From Acidobacteriota bacterium (GTDB lineage Bacteria > Acidobacteriota > Terriglobia > Terriglobales > Acidobacteriaceae), in NCBI GenBank assembly GCA_028872955.1, contig JAGWNX010000026.1, positions 1 to 40,085 of the forward strand: a stretch of 40,085 bases of DNA. Reading direction: 5' to 3'. Of the stretch, positions 1-20,073 are shown piece by piece. The position numbers and the translations under genes were made by a program. Each line of letters starts with the position of its first letter. Within the stretch, counting starts at the first letter, position 1. The notes under the pieces are model-generated. The model saw only the letters and a list, made by a program, of their open reading frames with translations. It was not told the origin of the DNA and searched no databases.

Positions 1-83
1 CCTAGCGCGAAGAACACACCAGCCACCAAGTCCGCAAGTGTACTTGAGCGGTGAATCCCGGCCATCCCTAGCGAAATCCAGTC

Positions 84-170
84 CACCTGGCGGGGGCCCA
101 GGATCGCTACGGCTGGAAACTGATTCAGCATCTGAAAGACCACCGGCTGAATGTGGCGAGGGATATGCAC
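84..170 (-). pseudogene. N-terminal remnant of a DUF4143-type AAA ATPase
   Basis: Read on the minus strand from a GTG at 170, the frame gives a start resembling the AAA_14/DUF4143 ATPase family. It contains the stretch LNQFPAVAILGPRQV, which normally runs straight into the P-loop GKTTLA. Here the match stops at GPRQV, and the following residues (DWISLGMAG and on) have no P-loop. The frame then stays open to the window edge without recognisable family sequence. I read it as a broken gene fragment or a recombination junction downstream of the relaxase gene. The rest of 1-276 shows no supported gene. The assignment rests on about 29 residues recalled from family knowledge. Confidence 0.42.
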
Positions 171-276: not shown

Positions 277-3063
277 TCAAAGACTCATCCCAGGGCGTTC
301 CACCTCAATCTTGCTTTGGTCAGATCCGATTACGGTCGGACCCAGGATTGGAGATTGCTCGCCTAAGGCAGGTCCGCAGACCGAATCGAGTGCGGCAGTC
401 TTCGTGACATCGGATTGCAGGCGTTCTCCGAGCGTTTGCGCCTCGTTCGTGTAAATGCGGGCATCGAGAGAAGCCCGGGAAACGGAGACATAGGCGAGCC
501 GACTGTTGATGAGACTGCGCGAGGAATCAGTGTCTATATGAACGAGAACTCGGGAAGCGGTAATTCCCTGAGAGCTATGCGATGTGACGGCATAGCCGTG
601 GTCAAATTGCCTAAAGTCCGTCGGGTTGAAAGTCACAATGCGTTGCACCTTGCCGTCCAAGCGTACCGTCATCTTCCCTTCGTCCACTCCGATGACTGTT
701 CCTAGGTCGCGGTTCGCGACCTTGAGCTCTTTGTTTGGTGCAGTGAACTGAAGTCGGTCGCCAGCCGCGAACTCACGCTCCATCTCACGGAACACGTTCA
801 CGCCCTGCAAGCGGCGCGGGTCGTATGTGACCCTTGTCCCATTCTGCAGCTCAACGGTTAGGGCGTTGGCGCTTGCATCGACGGAGCGGACCGTCGCAAA
901 GCTGTTGCGCTCGATGCCTTCGGTCTTGCTTCCGGTGTTGTACTGCAAGACGTCACCTTCGCTGTACCGCGCCGCCCATTTGCGATCAGCTCCGGTCATA
1001 TCCGATCGGTGCGACAACGTCTGGAACACGTGGCCGTCTTCAGCAAGAGTTCCGTTTCGCCGCAGCTCTACCCTGACGGCTTCATTGATCTGCTGGCGGC
1101 TTCGATTGTCCGGAGAGACGATGATCGTGCTGGTCGGGTTCGCAGCGTAGTCCCGGGCAATCGCGGCGATGCGAGCCTGGGAATCTCGCACCTCGGTGAC
1201 CCGGCCTTGATTCGTTAGCATGGCTATGCCCTCGACCGTCTCGTTGTTCGAAAGATGCTGGACGGCCTTAAGCAGTTCGGGGTCTTTCTGGCGCATGATC
1301 CTGTCTAACTGGGAGGTCTGCATCCCCGCTTCCTGCATCTGCTGGAAGGGGCGTCCGGCGTCTACGCCTTGATGCTGGCGAGTGTCCCCGATCACAAGAA
1401 CTCGATCAGTGGGATTGAGTTTTTCCAGAAACGATCTCATCTGCCTGGTACTGGCGAGACTGGACTCATCGAGCATATAGAGATGGCGGTTGGCAGGATC
1501 GGCGCTCGGATGATTCTGGCCACGCGCGAGAAAGCTCTGGAGGGTCGTAGCATCGATGCCGGCCTCTCGAAGTTGGCCAGCCGCTTTGGAAGTTGGCGCG
1601 AATCCTTCGACGATGTAGCCGCTCGCTTCCGCTCCTTCGCGGATACTCTGGAGCGTCGTGGTTTTCCCGGTGCCGGCCAATCCCTGTAGCCCGTGAATGC
1701 GATCGGACGAGTTAAGAACTTCTTCGATGACTCGACGCTGCGATTCATTCAAAAAGGGTCGTGCCTTAGCCTGTTCTCGGGCCATCTCCGCAGACATGAT
1801 CGGCGCAACGGCATTGCGTCCTTCGAGGACATAGCGGATGTTCGCCCGCTCGGCGGCGATGGTTTCAGGTGTAGTCAAGCTGCGCGCGGAACTGTGCTTC
1901 ATCCCTTGGACGATGCGAAGTTCTCCAGCCTCTTGACGACGGTCAAACTCAAGTCGGATCTCACGATGGGACGCATGCCCCATACCGCGCCGGAGGGCAT
2001 CGCGGAGAATCACCCGCTCATCGGCAACCGCCTCACGTTCGAAGATGCTGTCGCGTGCGAACGTCACGGCTTCTTTCGCGAGCGTCGTTCGGTTGGGCTC
2101 TCGATCGTGCTGCGCGGCGCGGTGGCGAGCAGCGGCGATCACCTTCTGCGGCTGATCTCCGAAGGCGGCGGCCATCTCTTTGTGCGCTCGAAGCACCTCC
2201 TCGGCAGAGAGCGTCTGCTTGCGGTCCCGGGTGGAGTGTGCCGCGATTTGAGCTGCCTCGGGACCCACGAATCCGCTCTTTTCAAGTTGCTCTCTGATCT
2301 GTCGCGACCGTGGACTGGAGGCATCCAGATACTCCTGCGAATACCCCTTGATCTCGGGTGCGCCGCTTCTCCCGGATTCAATTTCGTAGCCAAGCTGGCG
2401 GAGTTGATACATGAGAGCCGACTGATAAATAGCGGTCGCATACTGCTGGCTCTCGAACAGTGCCCGCTCCTGCAAGGCGCGGGTCGAGCCGTTCTCCCGC
2501 TCCGTGACATTGAAGATGACAGCGTGGGTGTGAAGCTGTGGCGCGGCGTAACCTGCGACCGGACGGGCCGTATCGTGCTCAAACTTCGCAGCGATGAACT
2601 TCCCGGTACTCTCGGCTGGATTGTTGCCGCCGATCCGAGCCTGGGTATAGCGTTCCAACTCGTCCAGAGCCGTTGTGACGGCTGCGCGGTGGGCTTCTCG
2701 AACACGATGATCGCCTCCGACCAGAGCTGTGAGCGAAACCGATTTTGGCGCGGAAAAGGTGGCGTCCCAACCCGCCCGATGCTCAACCGATTTCGTGGTT
2801 GTGCCATCGGCATTCTGGTATTCGGTTGCTACTCGGTGCCGTACCAGTGCTTCGCCTGATTGCGGATGGATGCCGTCCGCGAGCCGGGAGAATTCCAGCG
2901 GGGACACCTCCCCGGATAGTCCCAAGCAGCCGGAGAGCTTCCCTTGCCACTCTCCTTGGATCGATTCGCCCTGCTTGTAATAGTTCTGCGAATCGGAGGT
3001 GAACTCCAGCTTGTGGTAACTCTGCGCCTGGGCAGAATTGAGCGGTTTCGAGATCGTCAACAT
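277..3063 (-). CDS. trwC: MobF conjugative relaxase-helicase (TrwC/TraI family)
   Basis: 928 residues, the usual size for TrwC-like enzymes. It nicks oriT, stays covalently attached to the DNA end through a tyrosine, and unwinds the transferred strand. Visible relaxase features are candidate catalytic tyrosines at Tyr16 and Tyr28/29 followed by GEWQGKL, the GWDATFSAPKSVS motif around residue 100, and the metal-binding histidine triad His163, His178 and His180 (LHTH). The C-terminal half is a RecD-like helicase with Walker A GLAGTGKTTT near 461-470, Walker B LDESS near 531-535, GDTRQHQG, and a late SHSSQGIT motif. It starts 3 bp after the coupling-protein stop, so the two are cotranscribed. 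The accessory protein, coupling protein, relaxase order matches trwABC of R388. Confidence 0.95.
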   Translation of the reverse strand: MLTISKPLNSAQAQSYHKLEFTSDSQNYYKQGESIQGEWQGKLSGCLGLSGEVSPLEFSRLADGIHPQSGEALVRHRVATEYQNADGTTTKSVEHRAGWDATFSAPKSVSLTALVGGDHRVREAHRAAVTTALDELERYTQARIGGNNPAESTGKFIAAKFEHDTARPVAGYAAPQLHTHAVIFNVTERENGSTRALQERALFESQQYATAIYQSALMYQLRQLGYEIESGRSGAPEIKGYSQEYLDASSPRSRQIREQLEKSGFVGPEAAQIAAHSTRDRKQTLSAEEVLRAHKEMAAAFGDQPQKVIAAARHRAAQHDREPNRTTLAKEAVTFARDSIFEREAVADERVILRDALRRGMGHASHREIRLEFDRRQEAGELRIVQGMKHSSARSLTTPETIAAERANIRYVLEGRNAVAPIMSAEMAREQAKARPFLNESQRRVIEEVLNSSDRIHGLQGLAGTGKTTTLQSIREGAEASGYIVEGFAPTSKAAGQLREAGIDATTLQSFLARGQNHPSADPANRHLYMLDESSLASTRQMRSFLEKLNPTDRVLVIGDTRQHQGVDAGRPFQQMQEAGMQTSQLDRIMRQKDPELLKAVQHLSNNETVEGIAMLTNQGRVTEVRDSQARIAAIARDYAANPTSTIIVSPDNRSRQQINEAVRVELRRNGTLAEDGHVFQTLSHRSDMTGADRKWAARYSEGDVLQYNTGSKTEGIERNSFATVRSVDASANALTVELQNGTRVTYDPRRLQGVNVFREMEREFAAGDRLQFTAPNKELKVANRDLGTVIGVDEGKMTVRLDGKVQRIVTFNPTDFRQFDHGYAVTSHSSQGITASRVLVHIDTDSSRSLINSRLAYVSVSRASLDARIYTNEAQTLGERLQSDVTKTAALDSVCGPALGEQSPILGPTVIGSDQSKIEVERPGMSL

Positions 3064-3066
3064 CGC

Positions 3067-5160
3067 TTAAAGAATTCCCTGTTCGATGACGTGCGCGCGT
3101 CTTCCAAGCTGATCGTGAATCTCATTCTGCCTTTCAGTTTCAGCCGCAGACGCATGCTCAGTGGACGCCGCGAGAGGCTCTCGCTCGACGGGTTGACGTG
3201 CTGTGGTTTGCTGCGATGTCGCCACTTCGAGCTCTCGATTGTGAGCAAGCGGCGCCCCATGTCCTGGCGGCTCATCTACATCAACTTTGGCTGTGCTGAC
3301 CGCATCAAGATTGTCGCGAGGCAACAAGGTGTCGGGATCGAAGCTCATCTCGCCATCCGGGGAGCGTCGCGGCAGGAAGCCCGGAGTCGGAGTGGGCAGA
3401 TCGAGGTAGTCGAAGTCGAAGCGAGCGACAAGATTCCCGAGCTTCAAATAGGCATGACGGTCATCGAGTCCGCTGATCTCGGAGCCCATGACGAGCGGTT
3501 CAATCTGACGATCCACGGTGAAGTTTCTTCCAGATCGAGAGCCATCGAACTTGGTCTCCTTCAGCCGTTCGATCTCAACCTTCCCGATGGCCTCGGAGAT
3601 CCACTCTGATGCCTTCGGCTCCGCAGTCTTCATGAATATCTTCGTCGCTGGCTGCGAGAGCATGACCTCGGCAAGGTGGCCATAGATAACCTCAAGCTGC
3701 GCCTTCCCCTGGAAGCCGAGTACGAGCGGGTTCTTACTCTTCCGGTTCTCGGTGATGGCGGTGTGAAGCTGCGGGAGCTTTTGGAGACTCGCCAGTTCGT
3801 CGATCACAAACCAGACCGGCTTCTGGCCTGGCTGAGGCGCTGTGAGCAGCCGCATCACGAGCAGATCGATCCACAGCGAGTGCAAGGGGCGAAGCGTCTC
3901 CCTCTCGGCTGGACGCGAGGTAATGAAGACCCATCCCTTCCGCTCCTTGGCCCAGGTGCGTGCGTTCCACGTGCGCTTTGTCTCCTCCCTCTCGGGCAAG
4001 ATACGAAAGCACTTCGCGACCAATCCAAGCGATGCAAGGACGCCTGCGCGTTGCGGGCCAGCCTTCCGGTCGATGTAGAAGGACATCTCCGTTCCGGCCA
4101 CCAAGGTCTCCAGAGTGTCGCTGTTTGCCATCCACTCGGCGAGTTGGTGGGCGGTCGGCCCCTTTCTAAGTAGGTGGGCGAATATCTGCGCAGGCGTTTG
4201 GTGAAAGAACTCATCTTTCACGTCCGTCGCAGGCTGGTAGAGCGACGCCGCAATGGCATCGGCCTCTGCATTCGAGGCCATCTCCTGGGCCGGTCCCCAA
4301 TAAGGGCAACGTTCGTCGAGCGGGTTCAAGACAACATCTCCGCGCTCACCATCGTAGAAGCGTTGCAGATATTCGCAGGCCGGATCATAGATGACGGCTG
4401 AGTCACCTCGCTCCCGAATCTGGCGGAGGATTTGCATGATGAGCTGAGTCTTCCCGACACCGGTATCGCCCATGATCTGGAAGTGTTGCGACTCCTTACG
4501 GAGCGGAATCCGCATCATCTTTCCCAACTCCGTCGTCTTGAATCCGATGCCATCGCCCTTCTGCTGCCGGTTGAATTCTTCGGGCGTGAGCATCTGGGGT
4601 CCACGCAACACCCGCCCATACTTCATCTGCTTGAAGCGCCGGATGTCCTGCGGAATTGCGAACCAAAGTAGCGCGACGGAGACAACACCTCCCTCGATCA
4701 GGCTCACGGCAAAGAGCCTCGACAGGCTCTCCTCGCCGAACACGAAGGTGCGAAGCCAGCGGTGCATTGCCGCGTCCGCGAACTTCTCTGAAGGGCCGCG
4801 AAAGAACCAGCGATAGCCCTGAAGTCGGGCAACATCCCCGAGTCCCACCGGGAAGATCTGCCCGTTGGGCAGCGAAGTTGTCCCGTCTACCAAGTCGGCA
4901 GGAAGTGCGACGCGGGCCTTCGCCTTGCCGCCGCCGAGGTAGATGAGCCGATAGCTCTGACGGGCCTTGAAGACTGCGCCTACGTCCGACCGGACGTAGG
5001 CGGTGAGGTAGCTTTTCTGCAGAGGCTCAAGCGAGAAGTTGATCCGTTGCCAGACGAAAAGGCAGGTGCAGAGGATCGCCGAAGAAATGGCGCAGTAGCT
5101 CAGGATCGGAACGTGCGGCGGCCAGATGATGGTTTCCCGGCGTCCCCATTGACTCGCCAT
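3067..5160 (-). CDS. trwB: Type IV coupling protein (TrwB/TraD family)
   Basis: 697 residues from the chosen ATG. This inner-membrane hexameric ATPase docks the relaxase-DNA complex to the secretion channel. Two N-terminal membrane segments are visible (about 18-37 and 148-169), with a periplasmic region between them. Then come Walker A GDTGVGKT at 231-238 and a Walker B-like stretch FVIDELASLQKLPQLH. The tail beyond about residue 600 is polar and probably disordered. The ATG at 5160 was preferred to longer frames because a strong GAAGGAGG Shine-Dalgarno sits just upstream and the preceding gene stops 1 bp before it. It lies between the accessory protein and relaxase genes in one operon. Confidence 0.94.
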   Translation of the reverse strand: MASQWGRRETIIWPPHVPILSYCAISSAILCTCLFVWQRINFSLEPLQKSYLTAYVRSDVGAVFKARQSYRLIYLGGGKAKARVALPADLVDGTTSLPNGQIFPVGLGDVARLQGYRWFFRGPSEKFADAAMHRWLRTFVFGEESLSRLFAVSLIEGGVVSVALLWFAIPQDIRRFKQMKYGRVLRGPQMLTPEEFNRQQKGDGIGFKTTELGKMMRIPLRKESQHFQIMGDTGVGKTQLIMQILRQIRERGDSAVIYDPACEYLQRFYDGERGDVVLNPLDERCPYWGPAQEMASNAEADAIAASLYQPATDVKDEFFHQTPAQIFAHLLRKGPTAHQLAEWMANSDTLETLVAGTEMSFYIDRKAGPQRAGVLASLGLVAKCFRILPEREETKRTWNARTWAKERKGWVFITSRPAERETLRPLHSLWIDLLVMRLLTAPQPGQKPVWFVIDELASLQKLPQLHTAITENRKSKNPLVLGFQGKAQLEVIYGHLAEVMLSQPATKIFMKTAEPKASEWISEAIGKVEIERLKETKFDGSRSGRNFTVDRQIEPLVMGSEISGLDDRHAYLKLGNLVARFDFDYLDLPTPTPGFLPRRSPDGEMSFDPDTLLPRDNLDAVSTAKVDVDEPPGHGAPLAHNRELEVATSQQTTARQPVEREPLAASTEHASAAETERQNEIHDQLGRRAHVIEQGIL

Positions 5161-5161
5161 C

Positions 5162-5542
5162 TCAGGCCTCCTTCGGCGCTGCGGGCAGGTATTGTTGCTG
5201 GATTTCTTGAGCCACTTTCCGCTTCTCGTTCCGCACGGAAGCGGTAATTCGCGCGAAATCCTCCGCCGTAACTGGCTGGCCCATTGCAAGAGGCTTCAGA
5301 AGATTCAGAAGGACCATGCGCGTTGCGATGAGCTCCGTGAACAGCATGTCTTCCTGCGCCCGCCTGGCTTCGCGTAGCAGAACATCGCGCGACCAAGCCC
5401 GGATCGTTTTCCCGGCTGCCGCGGCGGCATTGCCGAGCGTGCTCACTTCTGCTTCCGTGAAGCGGGTCGCCAGACTCTCGGTTCTCGACAGTGACGTTTC
5501 GTCCGTCCGGGCATGATTTGGATTGGCTCCTCGGGTCGCCAT
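5162..5542 (-). CDS. Relaxosome accessory DNA-binding protein (TrwA/MobC-like)
   Basis: 126 residues. The central part (SLATRFTEAEVSTLGNAAAA, then GKTIRAWSRDVLL) resembles the ribbon-helix-helix/MobC accessory proteins that bind oriT and stimulate the relaxase. The N-terminus is polar and the C-terminus helical. The ATG at 5542 is preferred to upstream starts because AGAAAGGA lies at a good distance before it. Upstream starts would also run through a 16-bp inverted repeat that looks like an operator. It is the first gene of the accessory, coupling protein, relaxase series, which is the position of trwA in R388, and TrwA there represses its own operon. Function is inferred from motif and position; a general RHH regulator is the alternative. 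Confidence 0.72.
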   Translation of the reverse strand: MATRGANPNHARTDETSLSRTESLATRFTEAEVSTLGNAAAAAGKTIRAWSRDVLLREARRAQEDMLFTELIATRMVLLNLLKPLAMGQPVTAEDFARITASVRNEKRKVAQEIQQQYLPAAPKEA

Positions 5543-5740
5543 CACGGTTCCTTTCTGGCCGGTTCCAATTGCAACCGCACTGGTTGCAACTGGAACCGCC
5601 GTGCCATGTAAGTTGTTCCTCATCTGCGCGTTTCCAAACGGAACCTTTTCGCCACTTTGCACGACCCTCGGAGGGATGGAGTGTCAACATTCTTCCGGTG
5701 CGCAGCACCGCGGTGGTGCAGCTACCCCATCCTGACGGGG
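5543..5740. other. Candidate origin of transfer (oriT) and operator region
   Basis: This 198-bp non-coding stretch sits directly upstream of the accessory protein, coupling protein and relaxase genes, where oriT lies in R388. It is dense in symmetry: a 15/16 inverted repeat at 5561-5597, a CCCTC-G-GAGGG palindrome at 5665-5675, and a hairpin CGGTGC-GCA-GCACCG at 5696-5710. On the minus strand that hairpin is followed by GGAAGAATGTTGACAC. R388 also has a GCACC/GGTGC hairpin shortly before its nick site, so the nick could lie in the minus-strand sequence at about 5682-5695. A perfect TTGACA (minus, 5682-5687) may instead be a promoter -35, but no good -10 follows it. The role is inferred from position and symmetry. 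Confidence 0.5.
5561..5597. repeat. 16-bp inverted repeat upstream of accessory protein gene
   Basis: The left arm GGTTCCAATTGCAACC (5561-5576) and right arm GGTTGCAACTGGAACC (5582-5597) pair at 15 of 16 positions around a 5-bp centre. Further copies of the hexamer GGTTCC/GGAACC lie at 5546-5551 and 5640-5645, giving four exact hexamers in 100 bp. The repeat starts 19 bp before the ATG at 5542, so a protein bound here could repress the trwABC-like operon as well as mark oriT. A 16-bp RNA hairpin in the mRNA leader is the other reading. Confidence 0.75.
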
Positions 5741-6067
5741 CTAGACCTTCTTTGCGGACCCATGCTGCGGACCGGAGAGGCTTGCATCCGGCAAAGGCGA
5801 AGGCTTCTTCGAAGCCGTCTCCGCTGCGTCAGCAGGTGACGGCCTGCGGACTCGCAACGTGGACGGTACAGCCCGAGCTTCGTCGGTCTTCAAGAAGTCC
5901 TGGAAGTCGCGGTCTTTCGAGAAGACGTAGACGAGGGCTTGCTCGACGACATCATCCCCACTGGCTCGGATGAAAGCAGCATATTGATCGACTTGATTGG
6001 CGGTCGTCTCGGTAAGGCGGATGAAGGCGCTGATCTGGCGGACTTGAACAACTTCAAGCAGTGGCAT
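5741..6067 (-). CDS. Small conserved-looking protein of unknown function
   Basis: 108 residues; no confident family. The first 65 residues are well structured, with an amphipathic beginning (VRQISAFIRLTETTANQVDQ) and a segment ending in VYVFSKDRDFQDFL. The tail is rich in Ser, Pro, Ala and Lys and probably disordered. The ATG at 6067 is chosen for the AGGAGAA sequence just before it, and the start overlaps the end of the primase gene by 14 bp, so translation is probably coupled. A DNA-binding or plasmid-maintenance accessory role would fit the place between primase and oriT, but nothing in the sequence proves it. Confidence 0.7.
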   Translation of the reverse strand: MPLLEVVQVRQISAFIRLTETTANQVDQYAAFIRASGDDVVEQALVYVFSKDRDFQDFLKTDEARAVPSTLRVRRPSPADAAETASKKPSPLPDASLSGPQHGSAKKV

Positions 6068-7043
6068 CGGGGTTCTCCTGAGTGGGTAGGTGGGTGGTGG
6101 ATTCGGGGTGGGCGAGCATGCGTTGCGCGGTAGCCGCAATCTCTCTGGCGCGCGACGCGCAACGCTGTGGGGCAAGCTCCTGCAAACGACGCTGATAGAG
6201 CTGCGCGATCACCTCGTCAAGCGCAGCTCCGGCACGCAGCGCAAGCCGTGCCGAGGCGAGATCGACGGTCCTCGCGGCGTAGTACGTGGGGTTGGGTTTG
6301 TCGGGGCGTCGGAGGGAGAGTTCGTGCGTGAGTTGCCGGGCGTCTACGCCAAGCCGCAGGCGCTCGAAGGTCCATGCCCAGTCTTCTTCGGAAGGAGTCC
6401 GTGGTCCCTTGGGTTTTGCGGATGTAGGTCGCAGCGATGCGGCCGTGGACAGTGACTCAATTCCACTCAGCCGGAAGTCCTGCGGCGAGTAGATTGTCGT
6501 GCTTGGATACTCCGCCGTGACGACGTGTGCGAGCGCGTACTTGCAGTTTCGGAATCCAGGGAGCCGGAGCACCCGGTTGCGATCGGTGCAAGCAGGGTCT
6601 CCGCCGAAGGCTTGGGCCAACACTTTGAGGGTCGCTTCCTGCTGGTCGAAGTCGAAGCCAGCGACCCTCCAGAGCACCTGGTACTTGGCCGGTGAGGTCT
6701 GGAGGATCACACTCGGCGTGGGCACATGCTGCGATGCTCGCAATGCGGCCAAACGTGCTTCGCCATCCGTGTCGAGATCGAGGTAGAGGTGCCGGACCTG
6801 CTCAATGCTGTCCTTGGTGCGTCTGCGACTTCCGGAGAGCAGCGGATTGGCGGAGACGTAGATGTTGGCGCCCTTGGCATTCTCGTAGGCCAGCCAGGCG
6901 AGATAGCGTGGCATCCGTAGCTGCTGGAGCGTCACGATGCGTTGCTGCATCGCCCGAGGACTCTCGCGGAGAAGAAGCAGGGCGAGCGTCTCCTCCGGGT
7001 TGAAGCAACGGGATAGGAACTCTTGGACGAGCTTCGTAGACAT
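6054..7043 (-). CDS. RepB-like DNA primase
   Basis: 329 residues. It resembles the RepB-type primase domain of mobile elements, which makes primers on transferred single-stranded DNA. Visible family features are the acidic metal-binding motif HLYLDLDTDG near residues 85-95, the stretch SPAKYQVLWRV, and DRNRVLRLPGFRN about 40 residues later. The C-terminal third is helical and carries basic patches. The start MSTKLVQEFL at 7043 is preferred to the slightly longer frame, though neither has a strong ribosome-binding site. The gene lies downstream of ssb and overlaps the next gene. Together these support second-strand synthesis or element replication after transfer. Confidence 0.82.
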   Translation of the reverse strand: MSTKLVQEFLSRCFNPEETLALLLLRESPRAMQQRIVTLQQLRMPRYLAWLAYENAKGANIYVSANPLLSGSRRRTKDSIEQVRHLYLDLDTDGEARLAALRASQHVPTPSVILQTSPAKYQVLWRVAGFDFDQQEATLKVLAQAFGGDPACTDRNRVLRLPGFRNCKYALAHVVTAEYPSTTIYSPQDFRLSGIESLSTAASLRPTSAKPKGPRTPSEEDWAWTFERLRLGVDARQLTHELSLRRPDKPNPTYYAARTVDLASARLALRAGAALDEVIAQLYQRRLQELAPQRCASRAREIAATAQRMLAHPESTTHLPTQENPDATA

Positions 7044-7109
7044 GGCGGGTCTCACAGGGTTGGAAGCCCGGCGTTGGCCGGGCTTCCGGGTGGTTACGAG
7101 AAGCGGGGC

Positions 7110-7505
7110 TTAGGCCGCTGCTTCGAGCGGAAGCTGCGCTTCGGCTTCCTGCTCTTCCGGGCTAGCCTTCTCGGCCCGGTCCAGCTTGAGAATCGAGTTC
7201 ACCCGGATCTCCCAGATGGTCTTCTTCTCCGGCTGCTTCTTGCCGGTCTTCTTCGGCTCGTAGACCCGGCTGCGCAGCTCGCCTTCGATCTGCAGATGGG
7301 CTCCCTTGCGGAGCGTGCCAGCGAACTCAGCCAGCTTGCCGAAGACCACGCAACGATGCCACTCCGTGTGCGCGACGTACTGGCCGTCCTTCTTGTAGGA
7401 GGACTTGGTTGCCACCGAGAGGGTGGTAAAGCTGCGGCTGTCGTTGGTGCGAACCTCGGCGTCGTTGCCGAGGAAGCCGATGAGGGTGACTTTGTTCTGG
7501 TACAT
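7110..7505 (-). CDS. ssb: Single-stranded DNA-binding protein
   Basis: 131 residues. The N-terminal 100 residues form an SSB-type OB fold: NKVTLIGFLGNDAEVR, then FTTLSVAT, TEWHRCVVFGKLAEFA, and KGAHLQIEGELRSR. The C-terminus is Glu/Ala-rich and lacks the classical DDDIPF tip, as is common for SSBs of mobile elements. The ATG at 7505 follows a GGAG; the longer frame upstream has no SSB character. It probably protects transferred single-stranded DNA and works with the primase gene 66 bp downstream. The element carries its own copy, separate from the host chromosomal ssb. Confidence 0.93.
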   Translation of the reverse strand: MYQNKVTLIGFLGNDAEVRTNDSRSFTTLSVATKSSYKKDGQYVAHTEWHRCVVFGKLAEFAGTLRKGAHLQIEGELRSRVYEPKKTGKKQPEKKTIWEIRVNSILKLDRAEKASPEEQEAEAQLPLEAAA

Positions 7506-7983
7506 GGTGATGTTCTCCGTTTCGTTGAAGTTCCCGTTCGCTGACCGGGTCACACCTGGCGAAGCCCAGCAAGTGGGCACGGCTCCCAAGCGCCAAGCTC
7601 TGCATTTGCGGAGGGTCCGGCGAAGCTGGAAACCGTAACCCAACGGGCGTGGAACACGAAGCAGAAGAGCGCCGAGCCGCAGGGCGCCGGTTGTAGCCCC
7701 GCAGCGTGATCCCAGGGCAGAGGACGGGATACGGGACGGTAGACTCCTCCTGAACCAGCGTCACCCCATCTCTTCCTCAGGCATGCCAGTCGCTCCCAAC
7801 ACCGCGCCCCTCGACGGTTCAACCTGGCCTGCTCGGGATGGCCTTCGCAGCACTGGTTGCGTGAGGTACGACGGCTGGCAGGCACATACGCAATGGGCGC
7901 TTGCAGATCAGTCTGTGCTGCCGGATTGGCGAGAAGAAGATGCATGGAAGACTCCATCGATTCGGGTTGGTTTGTCAGTCGGT
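7506..7983. other. Non-coding gap between virB11 and ssb
   Basis: About 480 bp without a supported gene. Open frames exist on both strands, but they are rich in Cys, Trp and Arg, lack ribosome-binding sites and resemble no family. It probably carries the promoter of the ssb-primase operon and the end of the virB transcript. One CCATCTCT sequence near 7765 resembles a single half-site of the LysR-type palindrome seen elsewhere, but the second half is missing. I could not identify a convincing promoter or terminator. Confidence 0.4.
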
Positions 7984-16897: not shown

Positions 16898-17884
16898 TCA
16901 TCGCAGAGGAAGTGCCCCTGCTGCTCCCTCGAAGGGCAGCTGCCCCGAGCGAACCGGCTGCGGTGGCTTACGCGGCACGGTCTTCTCCTCTACCGGAAGT
17001 CTCCCTGCAAGCGTGCGCAGCAGAAATGCAATCGCGCCTCGCCGGTCGATGGGACGGAAGACAACGACCGATTCAGTGGCCCAGTCAGCGCCGCGTACGG
17101 GACGTGTGGTCAGGCTCTCCGGGAGTGCCTTTTGCTCCCGGATGAGCGCCAGACACACGTGCTCGCTTACCATCCACTGCACATGCTCGAGGTTGAGCGT
17201 GGGACTATAGAGCATCGGCTCGATCTGGCTCTGCGCTAACAGACCCAGCAACGCCGCGTGCGCGCGGGGATGATGCCGGGCATCGCTAAAGACCGCGAGC
17301 CTCCCAGTCAATTCAGACGCGGCCAGCTCGGCTTGGCTGGCGAGTGGATCGTCCTTGCAGAGCAGTACCACCAGACGTTCGCGCAAGACTGGTTGTACCG
17401 CGAGTCCTTCGAGATTGAGCGGAAGCGTCAGGATCGCTGCATCCAGCTCTCCTGCGCGAACGCGTTGCGACAACGCATCCGTGTCGCCGCCCTCCGGGCG
17501 GATCTGGCCTCGCGGAAACAGCTCGTGGTAGGAGTCGCAGATCTTCTGCAAAAGCATCGAGTCGACAAACGGGGAGAAGCCCAACCGTAACGGACGTGTC
17601 GCGGTCTGCTGCACGGCCTGCAGCGAGTTGATCGCTTCTTCGCGCAACTCCATCATCTGCCGCGCAAAGTGGTAGAGCGCCATACCCGCTTCTGTCAGCG
17701 TAGAACCTTCCCGTGTTCGATCAAAGATCGCGGCACCGAAGAGCTCTTCGAGCTCCAGAATTTGCTTGCTCAATGCGGATTGTGAAACGTGAATGCGCTC
17801 CGCAGCCTTGGTAAACGTTCCTGCTTCGGCTACGGCAATAATGTACTTCAGATGACGAAACTCCAGAACATCGTAGACACTCAT
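16898..17884 (-). CDS. LysR-family transcriptional regulator of the ICE
   Basis: 328 residues. The N-terminal winged helix-turn-helix is textbook LysR: FRHLKYIIAVAEAGTFTKAA, then VSQSALSKQILELEELFGAAIFDR. A linker helix and a periplasmic-binding-protein-like effector domain (from about residue 97, RPLRLGFSPFVDSMLL) follow. The last 30 residues are Pro/Arg-rich and look dispensable. It lies between the virB operon and the excisionase gene, transcribed toward virB2 and divergent from the excisionase. Palindromes with LysR-box geometry lie at both ends of this gene. It probably senses a small molecule and controls transfer and excision; the effector is unknown. Confidence 0.95.
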   Translation of the reverse strand: MSVYDVLEFRHLKYIIAVAEAGTFTKAAERIHVSQSALSKQILELEELFGAAIFDRTREGSTLTEAGMALYHFARQMMELREEAINSLQAVQQTATRPLRLGFSPFVDSMLLQKICDSYHELFPRGQIRPEGGDTDALSQRVRAGELDAAILTLPLNLEGLAVQPVLRERLVVLLCKDDPLASQAELAASELTGRLAVFSDARHHPRAHAALLGLLAQSQIEPMLYSPTLNLEHVQWMVSEHVCLALIREQKALPESLTTRPVRGADWATESVVVFRPIDRRGAIAFLLRTLAGRLPVEEKTVPRKPPQPVRSGQLPFEGAAGALPLR

Positions 17885-18362: not shown

Positions 18363-18823
18363 CACCTCGATGGATGGCCGTGTAGAGCTCTGGCGCATCA
18401 GGAACAGACCCGGTGTGTTCTACCGGGCAAAATGGACCTAATTTACCAGCCCCAAATACGAAGGCAACGGAAGATGCAGGATTCGTCGCATCCGAGTCTT
18501 GCTATCGATGGGTGCATATCTCTATCTCGGCTCGAAAACTGCAGGCTCGGGTCGGATGGCACTGCGGGGCTCCGATCGTTAGGGTACTTTCTATGCTCTG
18601 CTGATCCGTGGCGACTCGACGACGGTGGCTAGACCACAAGTACTACATCCGCGACTCCTCTCCTTTTCACGTTTGATCTTTTTCCTGCTCCGCGTGACCG
18701 GGCCCAAGATCAAAGACAATCTTCGACGACCGCAACTAACAGCCACCAAAACAATCTTCGCCCCATAAACACTGATAGTATTCCTGATGTAAATCAGATT
18801 GATCAGACAAGTTGGGGCTTGCC
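18363..18823. other. Non-coding gap between xis-like gene and int, with repeats
   Basis: About 460 bp with no supported gene. It holds a perfect 9-bp inverted repeat TTTGATCTT (18672-18680)/AAGATCAAA (18706-18714), a direct repeat ACAATCTTCG at 18716-18725 and 18751-18760, and one copy of the ACAGCCACC motif (18739-18747) that recurs at the end of int. The clustering suggests integrase or excisionase binding sites or an int operator. A 23-codon frame at 18370 (MDGRVELWRIRNRPGVFYRA) vaguely recalls the N-terminus of a tyrosine recombinase and may be a relic. Confidence 0.5.
18672..18714. repeat. 9-bp inverted repeat upstream of int
   Basis: TTTGATCTT at 18672-18680 and its exact reverse complement AAGATCAAA at 18706-18714 are separated by 25 bp. 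It lies 110-152 bp before the int start. There is no T-tract after the right arm, so a terminator is unlikely. An operator or Xis/integrase site is more plausible. Confidence 0.6.
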
Positions 18824-19909
18824 ATGCCAAGAGGTGTTTGGGAAAAGGTTCCCGGAAGCGGAATCTGGTGGATTCACTATGTAGACGCCGAAGGTAAGCG
18901 GCGACGTGAGAAAGTTGGACGGAAAGGCGATGCGATCAAGCTCTACCACAAGCGCAAAGCCGATGCACAAGCGGGTCGCAAGCTCGAAAAGCCGCTTCGG
19001 CAAAGGGAGCGCACATTTGAGGAGTTCGCCACCGAAGCGCTATCGTACGCCAAAAAGCACAAAGCGAATCCGGCTGACGATGAGCAAAAAATCGGCGTCC
19101 TAGTCAACGAGTTCGGTGATCGCATCGCATCGTCTCTGACCCAGCAAGAGCTTGCGGCTTTTTTGGATTCTCGAAAAACAAGTCCGGCTACATTCAACAG
19201 GTATAGGGCTACCCTGAGCATGATCTACAGAGAAGCTATACGCAACGGATGGACTGAACGCAATCCCGCGCGGCTGATACGTGCCAAAAAGGAGCAAAAC
19301 GGCCGCATCCGATTTCTCTCCGATGAAGAAGAGGCCAGGATTAGAGCAGTGATCCTGAAGCACTATTCGGATCGCAACCTCAACGAATTTGAGATCGCTC
19401 TTCATACCGGTATGCGCCGATCCGAACAATTCTCGCTGGAATGGAAGCAGACAGACCTGAAGGCGAGACGCATTCACCTTTTAAAGACGAAGAATGGATC
19501 GGATCGAGCAATCCCACTCAACTCTATCGCTCTTGCCGCGCTGCAGCGCCAACACGCTATTTCAGGAAGCGCCGAGAGGGTATTTTTGACTGAAAATGGG
19601 AATCCATTTATCCGCAAAGCCATACGTCGCTGGTTCGAAGAGGCACTGACGATAGCCGGAATCGCAGATTTCAGCTGGCATTGCTTGAGGCACACTTTTT
19701 GCAGCCGTTTGGTAATGGCAGGGGTGCCCTTGAAAACCGCTCAAGAGCTGATGGGGCATAAGACGATTCAAATGACTGCCCGATACGCGCATCTTTCGCC
19801 AAGCTATCTTCAAAACGCAGTGGAGATGATCGCAGGCGAAAACAGCCACCCGACAGCCACCAAGCTTACATCGACGACAACAGCCACCAAAACAGCCACC
19901 GGCCGGTAA
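18824..19909 (+). CDS. int: Tyrosine recombinase (ICE integrase)
   Basis: 361 residues. The N-terminal arm-binding part (MPRGVWEKVPGSGIWWIHYV) and SAM-like core-binding domain (about 63-150) precede the catalytic domain. Active-site residues are all visible: Arg198 in TGMRRSE, Lys at 221/223 in LLKTKNGSDR, His286 and Arg289 in WHCLRHTF, His312 in LMGHK, and Tyr321 in TARYAHLSP. It should integrate and excise the element at the tRNA-Ser 3' end, 72 bp downstream. The ATG at 18824 is chosen because upstream codons in frame add only four residues from a TTG. The Thr/Ala/Lys-rich tail is encoded by repeated ACAGCCACC units that may double as DNA sites. Confidence 0.96.
   Translation: MPRGVWEKVPGSGIWWIHYVDAEGKRRREKVGRKGDAIKLYHKRKADAQAGRKLEKPLRQRERTFEEFATEALSYAKKHKANPADDEQKIGVLVNEFGDRIASSLTQQELAAFLDSRKTSPATFNRYRATLSMIYREAIRNGWTERNPARLIRAKKEQNGRIRFLSDEEEARIRAVILKHYSDRNLNEFEIALHTGMRRSEQFSLEWKQTDLKARRIHLLKTKNGSDRAIPLNSIALAALQRQHAISGSAERVFLTENGNPFIRKAIRRWFEEALTIAGIADFSWHCLRHTFCSRLVMAGVPLKTAQELMGHKTIQMTARYAHLSPSYLQNAVEMIAGENSHPTATKLTSTTTATKTATGR
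19841..19900. repeat. Four ACAGCCACC repeats at int 3' end, putative arm-type sites
   Basis: ACAGCCACC occurs at 19842-19850, 19853-19861, 19880-19888 and 19892-19900, all in direct orientation, and once more at 18739-18747 before int. Some copies extend to ACAGCCACCAAAACA (18739 and 19880). They sit 80-140 bp from the tRNA 3' end, where arm-type binding sites of tyrosine integrases are expected. They also encode the Thr-Ala-Thr tail of the integrase, so a protein-level repeat is the alternative. Confidence 0.55.
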
Positions 19910-19981
19910 ACACCATGCCGGGCAAGGCATTGACTGACTCACTCAATACTGCAATAAAGTATTCATTTACAGGGAGTTATG

Positions 19982-20010
19982 TGGCGGAGAGGGAGGGATT
20001 CGAACCCCCG
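19982..20010. other. Probable attachment site in tRNA-Ser 3' end
   Basis: The 3' end of the tRNA (acceptor stem and T-arm, including GGGATTCGAACCCCC on the plus strand) abuts the integrase gene. Tyrosine integrases of this type recombine within such sequences and restore the tRNA gene. The exact crossover cannot be seen, because the partner repeat lies outside the window. Confidence 0.6.
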
Positions 20011-20073
20011 GTACCCTTGCGAGTACGTCTGATTTCGAGTCAGGTGCATTCAACCGGGCTCTGCCACCTCTCC
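19982..20073 (-). tRNA. tRNA-Ser (anticodon CGA)
   Basis: Minus-strand reading gives a 92-nt type II tRNA with encoded CCA (19982-19984). The acceptor stem GGAGAGG pairs with CCTCTCC, the anticodon stem-loop is CTGACTCGAAATCAG with anticodon CGA (reads UCG), the long variable arm is ACGTACTCGCAAGGGTACC, and the T-loop is GTTCGAATC. The long variable arm and G at the discriminator fit serine. The gene is intact and is the ICE integration target. Confidence 0.96.

Follow-up and report, generated by a model that had tools for sequence, protein, structure and literature searches.

The window, by which we mean the whole stretch of DNA analysed, is the entire contig C38 (40085 bases) of a 3.48 Mb genome. 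Its first 18 kb form a conjugative module on the minus strand, where a TrwC-type relaxase domain is encoded together with a TrwB-type coupling protein (for which an ATG was chosen as the start within the listed ORF 3067-5289) and, near the latter, VirB-type secretion genes (matches to PF00437, PF04335, PF04610, PF03743 and PF03524), as in MOBF (TrwC/TraI) conjugative elements. Since a phage-type integrase adjoins a tRNA-Ser, beyond which the genes look chromosomal, the element is probably an ICE, with one end seen in the window and the other off the contig. A LysR-type regulator is found at 16898-17884, between the secretion genes and the integrase. The main features of the locus are listed below.

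277-3063, minus strand: TrwC-type MOBF relaxase-helicase, 928 aa (PF08751, E 3.6e-85, residues 11-300)
3067-5160, minus strand: TrwB-type coupling protein (PF10412, E 8e-79)
5162-5542, minus strand: NikA-like accessory protein, 126 aa; N-terminal half proposed as reader, C-terminal half proposed as dock
5546-5551, no strand assigned: fourth GGTTCC, immediately before the nikA-like gene begins, overlapping the likely ribosome-binding region and outside the common three-site register
5561-5576, no strand assigned: putative address site S3, GGTTCCAATTGCAACC (register and within-element similarity; inverted repeat)
5582-5597, no strand assigned: putative address site S2, GGTTGCAACTGGAACC (register and within-element similarity; inverted repeat)
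5630-5645, no strand assigned: putative address site S1, GTTTCC-AAAC-GGAACC (register and within-element similarity)
5654-5712, plus strand: conserved oriT core, 59 nt, with inverted repeat, spacer, predicted nick and hairpin (model R1, 81.5 bits in the window)
5665-5675, plus strand: inverted repeat CCCT-CGG-AGGG, putative relaxase-binding repeat on the 5' side of the nick (93% paired; position as in R388 and F)
5676-5684, plus strand: 9-nt spacer ATGGAGTGT, with the predicted nick T5684/C5685 at its end (9-nt spacer in R388, GTGGGGTGT in F)
5696-5710, plus strand: hairpin CGGTGC-GCA-GCACCG; its proposed place is on the 3' side of the nick, where the transferred strand has its 5' end
5741-7643, minus strand: proposed leading region, with a small ORF (5741 to about 6067), a RepB primase (6054-7055) and an SSB (within 7110-7643)
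18812-20073: phage-type integrase (18812-19909, plus strand) beside tRNA-Ser (19982-20073, minus strand), probable ICE end

The original prediction had placed a candidate oriT in the gap before the accessory gene on the basis of several repeats, all of which are present in the sequence: four GGTTCC/GGAACC hexamers within 100 bp (starts at 5546, 5561, 5592 and 5640), a 15/16 inverted repeat (5561-5576 with 5582-5597; 16/17 if extended), the palindrome CCCTC-G-GAGGG (CCCTCGGAGGG, 5665-5675) and a 6-bp hairpin CGGTGC-GCA-GCACCG (CGGTGCGCAGCACCG, 5696-5710). The whole window contains 19 GGTTCC/GGAACC and no other cluster of such kind, and none of 200 dinucleotide shuffles of the window reached such a density. 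The folds alone are unremarkable, with a modest z for the hairpin (-2.2 on the plus strand, -2.5 on the minus strand), a stability no better than that of shuffles for the 30-nt piece containing CCCT/AGGG (z 0.44) and nothing unusual for the 69-nt region overall (z -0.6 and -0.3); therefore, conservation had to decide. It is conservation, not fold strength, that raises these repeats above chance.

A search of the same genome with positions 5400-5800 matched contig C167 at 85% over 40 bases (window 5672-5711, E 1.5e-5), at the equivalent place in a gene order equal to that of the window (ssb, repB, small ORF, gap, nikA-like, trwB-like). TrwB relatives (125 with E<=1e-40) were searched for in 298 genomes of the order, and the core was present in all 30 TrwB-anchored loci that were kept, the window's own among them, with 28 to 37 of 37 letters matched. 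In an alignment of 31 loci (A1), 27 of the 59 columns are invariant. Considering the 29 distinct sequences, the hairpin is paired in 100% of cells, its four inner pairs being invariant and its two outer pairs changing on both sides (8 cells; 0/500 shuffles as high), while the CCCT/AGGG helix is paired in 93% of cells with three of its four pairs invariant. The order and phylum searches used the covariance model R1, in which two of the eight pairs are one column off and the score rests mostly on sequence; at E<=0.01 the core was found in 146 of the 298 order genomes, and at E<=0.001 in 26 of 396 genomes at the phylum level, 24 of these 26 belonging to the window's family. A degenerate pattern returned 68 named contigs, 67 titled Acidobacteria, Terriglobia or genera of that group and one titled Rhodanobacteraceae. 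The latter, a MAG contig of 10044 bases (L265, JANXWZ010000106.1), carries the core, and its label or binning is probably wrong.

We assembled 84 core loci, comprising the window, three plasmids and 80 genome stretches drawn by hand from the listed core matches sorted by core score. Downstream and on the same strand, a nikA-like gene is present in 83 of them, trwB in 83 and trwC in 81, counts that are biased upwards and do not represent a rate, since the loci were hand-picked and cores already suspected to be relaxase-less were left out; one element is included twice (L179 and L037). The nikA start lies at a median of +141 nt from the core anchor (IQR 135-144). Around the best-scoring core overall (G147:C36:16834-16892, 81.8 bits; L039, L134), the retrieved sequence gave no match to nikA, trwB or trwC. 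The same kind of core is also found beside mobF in plasmids, namely pACIX903, pACIX904 and pACIX905 of Granulicella tundricola and pACPOL1 of Acidisarcina; their gene tables list coding genes only, with no oriT, and no coupling-protein gene is listed for pACIX904. A comparison of the region across related elements had been proposed as a check, and its outcome, a 59-nt core in about half of the genomes of the order and, in the hand-picked loci, the arrangement core-nikA-trwB-trwC on one strand, upholds the oriT predicted upstream of the trwABC-like genes. From these comparisons, we consider it very probable that this stretch serves as the oriT for a MOBF (TrwC-type) ICE of Acidobacteriaceae.

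Read on the plus strand, the core runs CCCT-CGG-AGGG, ATGGAGTGT, CAACATTCTTC and then CGGTGC-GCA-GCACCG. In F, an inverted repeat is followed by GTGGGGTGT, directly after which we take the nick to lie, and a stem-loop folds 3' of the nick site. According to one study (PMC12117103), the F relaxase site extends from 9 bases upstream of nic to 2 bases downstream, TraI in its helicase form is placed at the region 3' of the nick, and several ribbon-helix-helix (RHH) sites lie 5' of it. For R388, the proximal arm, nine bases and the nick occupy positions 12-16, 17-25 and 26 (PMC4176350), the sequence being GGTGC followed by the nine bases GTATTGTCT and the nick. The window spacer shares 7 of 9 letters with that of F, and the commonest spacer in the family, GTGGAGTGT (73 of 155 distinct instances), differs from the F sequence by one letter. 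Because the CCCT/AGGG repeat and the 9-nt F-like spacer are spaced as in R388 and F, the nick is predicted at T5684/C5685 on the plus strand, a position that we regard as likely; the succession of inverted repeat, about 9 nt and nick that characterizes a MOBF oriT is recognized here from position and sequence. The hairpin at 5696-5710 would then probably be located 11 nt past the predicted nick on the transferred strand, not before the nick. It is more strongly structured than the CCCT/AGGG repeat, which is short and unstable by itself, and its loop is GNA in 141 of 155 distinct instances. GNA loops are specially stable, a property that the fold model did not show. The spacing between the repeat and GTGTC was discarded as evidence on which strand is nicked, since the distance is set by the search pattern and the comparison is therefore not a fair one; the counts for neighbouring gaps probably reflect overlapping G runs.

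To the right of the predicted nick, the small ORF, the primase and the SSB are all on the minus strand, so the transferred strand, running rightwards, would be their template. A previous work (PMC11541004) describes SSB genes, all oriented one way, as a typical component of leading regions; for F (L293), two of the three genes beside the nick have that relative orientation and the nearest one is opposite. R388 resembles the window in its MOBF relaxase (33% identical), in its RHH accessory gene and the side of oriT where this gene lies, in the inverted repeat and 9-nt spacer before the nick, and in a transfer operon predicted to enter last. It differs in the repeat and spacer sequences, in the absence of a hairpin directly 3' of the nick in its fold, and in its leading side, formed by stb genes where the window has the primase and SSB. 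The original prediction that position and order match R388 was thus only partially confirmed: the accessory gene and the sites are on one side of the nick and the leading genes on the other, but the R388 GCACC/GGTGC hairpin ends 9 nt before nic, a position occupied in the window by CCCT-CGG-AGGG. The R388 oriT has a GCACC/GGTGC repeat and a GTATTGTCT/A spacer; no R388-like spacer was found after the window's GGTGC/GCACC hairpin, and R388 gave only background scores against the core consensus. The likeness to F includes the 9-nt spacer, the stem-loops on both sides of the nick and the several RHH sites 5' of it (PMC12117103); F employs TraY, TraM and IHF where the window has one NikA-like protein and three sites.

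Between the core and nikA, up to three short palindromic sites are found at fixed distances from the anchor (+36..58, +84..106 and +104..128) in a site-register analysis of 44 of the 58 ICE-type loci. For the comparisons that follow, 57 loci were retained from the 84, after removing three without a gene (L134, L151, L212), two with a TrwC match of <=200 aa (L197, L207) and a further 22 whose NikA is at least 90% identical to a kept one. Sites are more similar within a locus (0.73, 0.70 and 0.65) than between loci (0.57), with 0/5000 permutations for each site pair. The motif is GGTTCC/GGAACC in the window and, elsewhere, for example GTATGC, AAAACA/GTAAAC, GTAGAC, GGAGCT or GGATTC. The partner site of the same locus is the best or tied match in 24, 19 and 12 of the 57 loci, and three clear sites are not present in every locus. 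In 37 of 79 core loci of all classes, the internal address repeats exceeded every one of the 20 shuffles; the window was matched by one of its 20. Judging from these similarities, the GGTTCC cluster is one of many apparently element-specific addresses. The genome of the window contains a second full element of the family, that on contig C167 (L003), with the different address GGGAGCT..AGCTCCC, and also a third TrwC fragment (G000:C144:22621-22947). A CTTAN motif occurs in the +50..90 interval of 27 of the 57 loci (two control intervals gave 7 and 6), at about +72..74, which corresponds to about 5611-5613 in the window; R388 also has an ACTTAC beside its nick repeat.

The accessory protein of the window matches PF21983 with 22.5 bits, below the curated cut-off of 27, and NikA (2ba3) with E 0.019. 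Among its relatives, 42 of 57 have a match to PF21983 and 17 of 57 to RHH_1 (E<=0.01), so an RHH domain at the N terminus is a plausible assignment. The AlphaFold model (mean pLDDT 84, pTM 0.52) has four helices, which fit an RHH, and no strand in the single chain; a Foldseek search of the PDB with this model gave nothing significant. Across the 57 loci, the sites follow NikA when TrwC is given (0.48, 0/2000) and not TrwC when NikA is given (-0.14). The core is weakly related to TrwC similarity (0.21, 27/2000), a relation that differs from that of a smaller set, and to NikA (0.12, 16/2000). When the protein is divided, the sites follow the N-terminal half given the C-terminal one (partial r 0.55, 0/2000; the reverse is 0.00), and it is the C-terminal half that follows TrwC (0.61, 0/2000), not the N-terminal half (-0.04). 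The site correlation along NikA peaks just before the first helix, where the RHH strand is expected. Inside TrwC clades, the sites correlate with the N-terminal half at 0.80 (0/2000) and more weakly with the C-terminal half (0.33, 1/2000). As a linkage control, the inter-site DNA, given the sites, shows no tracking of the N-terminal half (0.06, 54/2000), and the sites, given the inter-site DNA, still track it (0.59, 0/2000), which speaks against mere linkage. This covariation lends support to a role of the hexamers as accessory-protein sites, and we consider a pairing between the address and a reader in the N-terminal half highly probable. The linkage control covered this relation; since the figure for the C-terminal half and TrwC stands without such a control, docking of that half on the relaxase is a guess. 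Some loci are single-letter neighbours in strand and site, with SIATRFT accompanying GGTTCC (L163, L164, L172, L192, L198), SIGTRFT accompanying GATTCC (L169) and SIAIRFT accompanying GTTTCC (L176), pairs that we regard as suggestive.

In a further set of 40 core loci searched by tblastn, selected in part because they had no known TrwB, 19 have neither TrwC nor TrwB, 13 have TrwC only, 3 TrwB only and 5 both; three of those 19 (L094, L121, L129) end within 3.5 kb downstream. A near-perfect core, a common address and a NikA-like gene are found at the relaxase-less loci L096, L097, L098, L100 and L113, and at 1e-10 PF08751 found no match in genomes G086 and G252. These relaxase-less loci are possibly hitch-hiking islands or decayed elements. 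Integrase-like ORFs were observed upstream in L096 and L100. In another class of core, which carries GACACGTCA on the minus strand, nikA and TrwC are often present and tblastn finds no TrwB; its loci could be MOBF mobilisable elements. This class (L103-L106, L109, L110, L114-L116) has mostly NikA-like matches, often an integrase match, and several copies per genome.

Close relatives agree well as far as the core, are hardly more alike than by chance across the address and the 5' half of nikA, and become similar again inside nikA. In L194 and L201, identity is 82-100% before the core, 36-50% from +50 to +299, 60% at +300 and 96% at +350. Of the 114 pairs whose TrwC identity reaches 85%, 47 have both flanks at >=70%; in these pairs, which are not independent of each other, the address and the nikA 5' half are both below 55% in 31 cases, both at least 65% in 9, and otherwise in the other 7. 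The two segments move together, being both high in 12 pairs, both low in 34 and mixed in one at a 60% cut (r 0.89). It is therefore likely, as read from the alignments, that the address and the N-terminal half are replaced as a cassette of roughly 300 bp between conserved flanks, and recombination is the route that we infer.

A trough between conserved flanks would also be produced by divergence alone, in case the oriT is right, no cassette is exchanged, and the address and the N-terminal half co-diverge fast by point mutation and co-adaptation. This is not what the mosaic pairs suggest, since they occur in both directions (L161/L201 with 74% in the N-terminal half and 27% in the C-terminal half; L136/L147 with 87% in the C-terminal half and 37% in the N-terminal half). 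Moreover, like strands and like sites recur in distant backgrounds, which also argues against co-divergence: site similarity is 0.77 in 46 like-strand pairs and 0.61 in 1077 unlike-strand pairs, the values for spacer DNA being 0.61 and 0.57. We consider co-divergence unlikely, and replacement of the cassette is the reading that we retain.

The strand of the nick and the function of the region also admit other explanations. Our initial reading was a minus-strand nick at the same oriT, dropped after the plus strand was compared with F and R388 and kept here as a rival; in it, the hairpin, read as CGGTGC-TGC-GCACCG, would be the relaxase site, with cleavage in or beside TTGACACTCC and trwABC transferred first. 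It would agree with the better structure of the hairpin and its changes on both sides, and with the conserved sequence 3' of the hairpin on that strand, and it is close to the view of the original prediction. However, the orientation would be opposite to that of R388, the SSB and primase would enter last, and the hairpin is not followed by a 9-nt spacer like that of F or R388. The distance from the hairpin to GTGTC varies somewhat (10 in 136 of 155 instances, otherwise 9, 11, 13 or 16), and the conservation of the loop fits GNA on the plus strand, so that a nick on the minus strand appears improbable to us. The region could alternatively be mainly an operator/promoter of nikA-trwB-trwC, the hairpin being regulatory or used in priming (e.g. 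as a start for the RepB primase) and the oriT being elsewhere. The sites are in fact directly upstream of nikA, as with autoregulating accessory proteins, and a RepB-type primase gene is adjacent, but among the 40 further loci RepB was found in 1 of the 18 with TrwC (L108) and the core persists in the 19 that have neither TrwC nor TrwB. A scan of the region for promoters and terminators found no sigma-70-like promoter and no terminator-like site, and this explanation seems very unlikely to us.

The preferred explanation is an oriT nicked on the plus strand, with RHH address sites and with cutting and address modules that are separable and subject to cassette replacement, and as a whole it seems quite probable given the sequence comparisons. 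The MOBF relaxase TrwC would recognise the CCCT/AGGG repeat and the 9-nt spacer and nick the plus strand at T5684/C5685. The recipient would first receive the 3' side, which has the GNA hairpin, then the small ORF, the RepB primase and the SSB, and trwABC last. Dimers of the RHH accessory protein would occupy the three GGTTCC-type palindromes on the 5' side of the nick, assembling the relaxosome at its own oriT, and the protein perhaps represses its own operon. We infer here the position and strand of the nick, the binding, the docking of the C-terminal half and the autoregulation. The cutting site and the address would be separate modules, the core being common to the family and the address and N-terminal reader half being swapped between elements, so specificity could change while the relaxase and the secretion system stay.

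The pWBG749 family consists of Gram-positive plasmids of another relaxase type. Its RHH protein SmpO is reported to set oriT specificity, which is determined near the SmpO N terminus, with one residue switching preference and five subtypes described, and oriT and smpO differ between clusters otherwise 96-99% identical (PMC8136818). The address-reader principle is therefore already known. The likeness to our family comprises a constant core, variable sites for an RHH accessory protein, and replacement of oriT and smpO between conserved flanks; the differences are that here we have MOBF ICEs, many site types and mosaic accessory proteins. A constant relaxase core with variable sites matched to the RHH protein is thus seen here at the sequence level, and we do not claim membership of that plasmid family. 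As far as our searches go, the novelty lies in the occurrence in MOBF elements, in how many specificities there are, and in an accessory protein divided into a reader half and another half linked to the backbone. Among the literature matches listed, with subscription journals mostly outside the search, no paper was found joining Granulicella and relaxase, and those naming Acidobacteri*, MOBF and relaxase were, judged by title and among the matches listed, general surveys.

We give about an even chance to a broader proposal, in which acidobacterial MOBF elements residing in one cell exchange, by recombination, a transfer-specificity cassette that is made up of address DNA and reader domain and lies between a nick core and a docking domain that the elements have in common. 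It would yield a large natural RHH recognition code (e.g. SIATRFT/GGTTCC, SIGTRFT/GATTCC, SIAIRFT/GTTTCC and VAQARVT/GTATGC), keep sister relaxosomes in one cell apart, and let relaxase-less islands of core, address and reader hitch-hike. The results provide a nucleotide-level oriT prediction for a conjugation family present in about half of the sampled genomes of the order (146 of 298), and the table of strands and sites can serve directly as data for an RHH recognition code. With many natural elements that have a near-identical cutting site and unrelated addresses, experiments can directly address which relaxosome component selects the element whose DNA is transferred.
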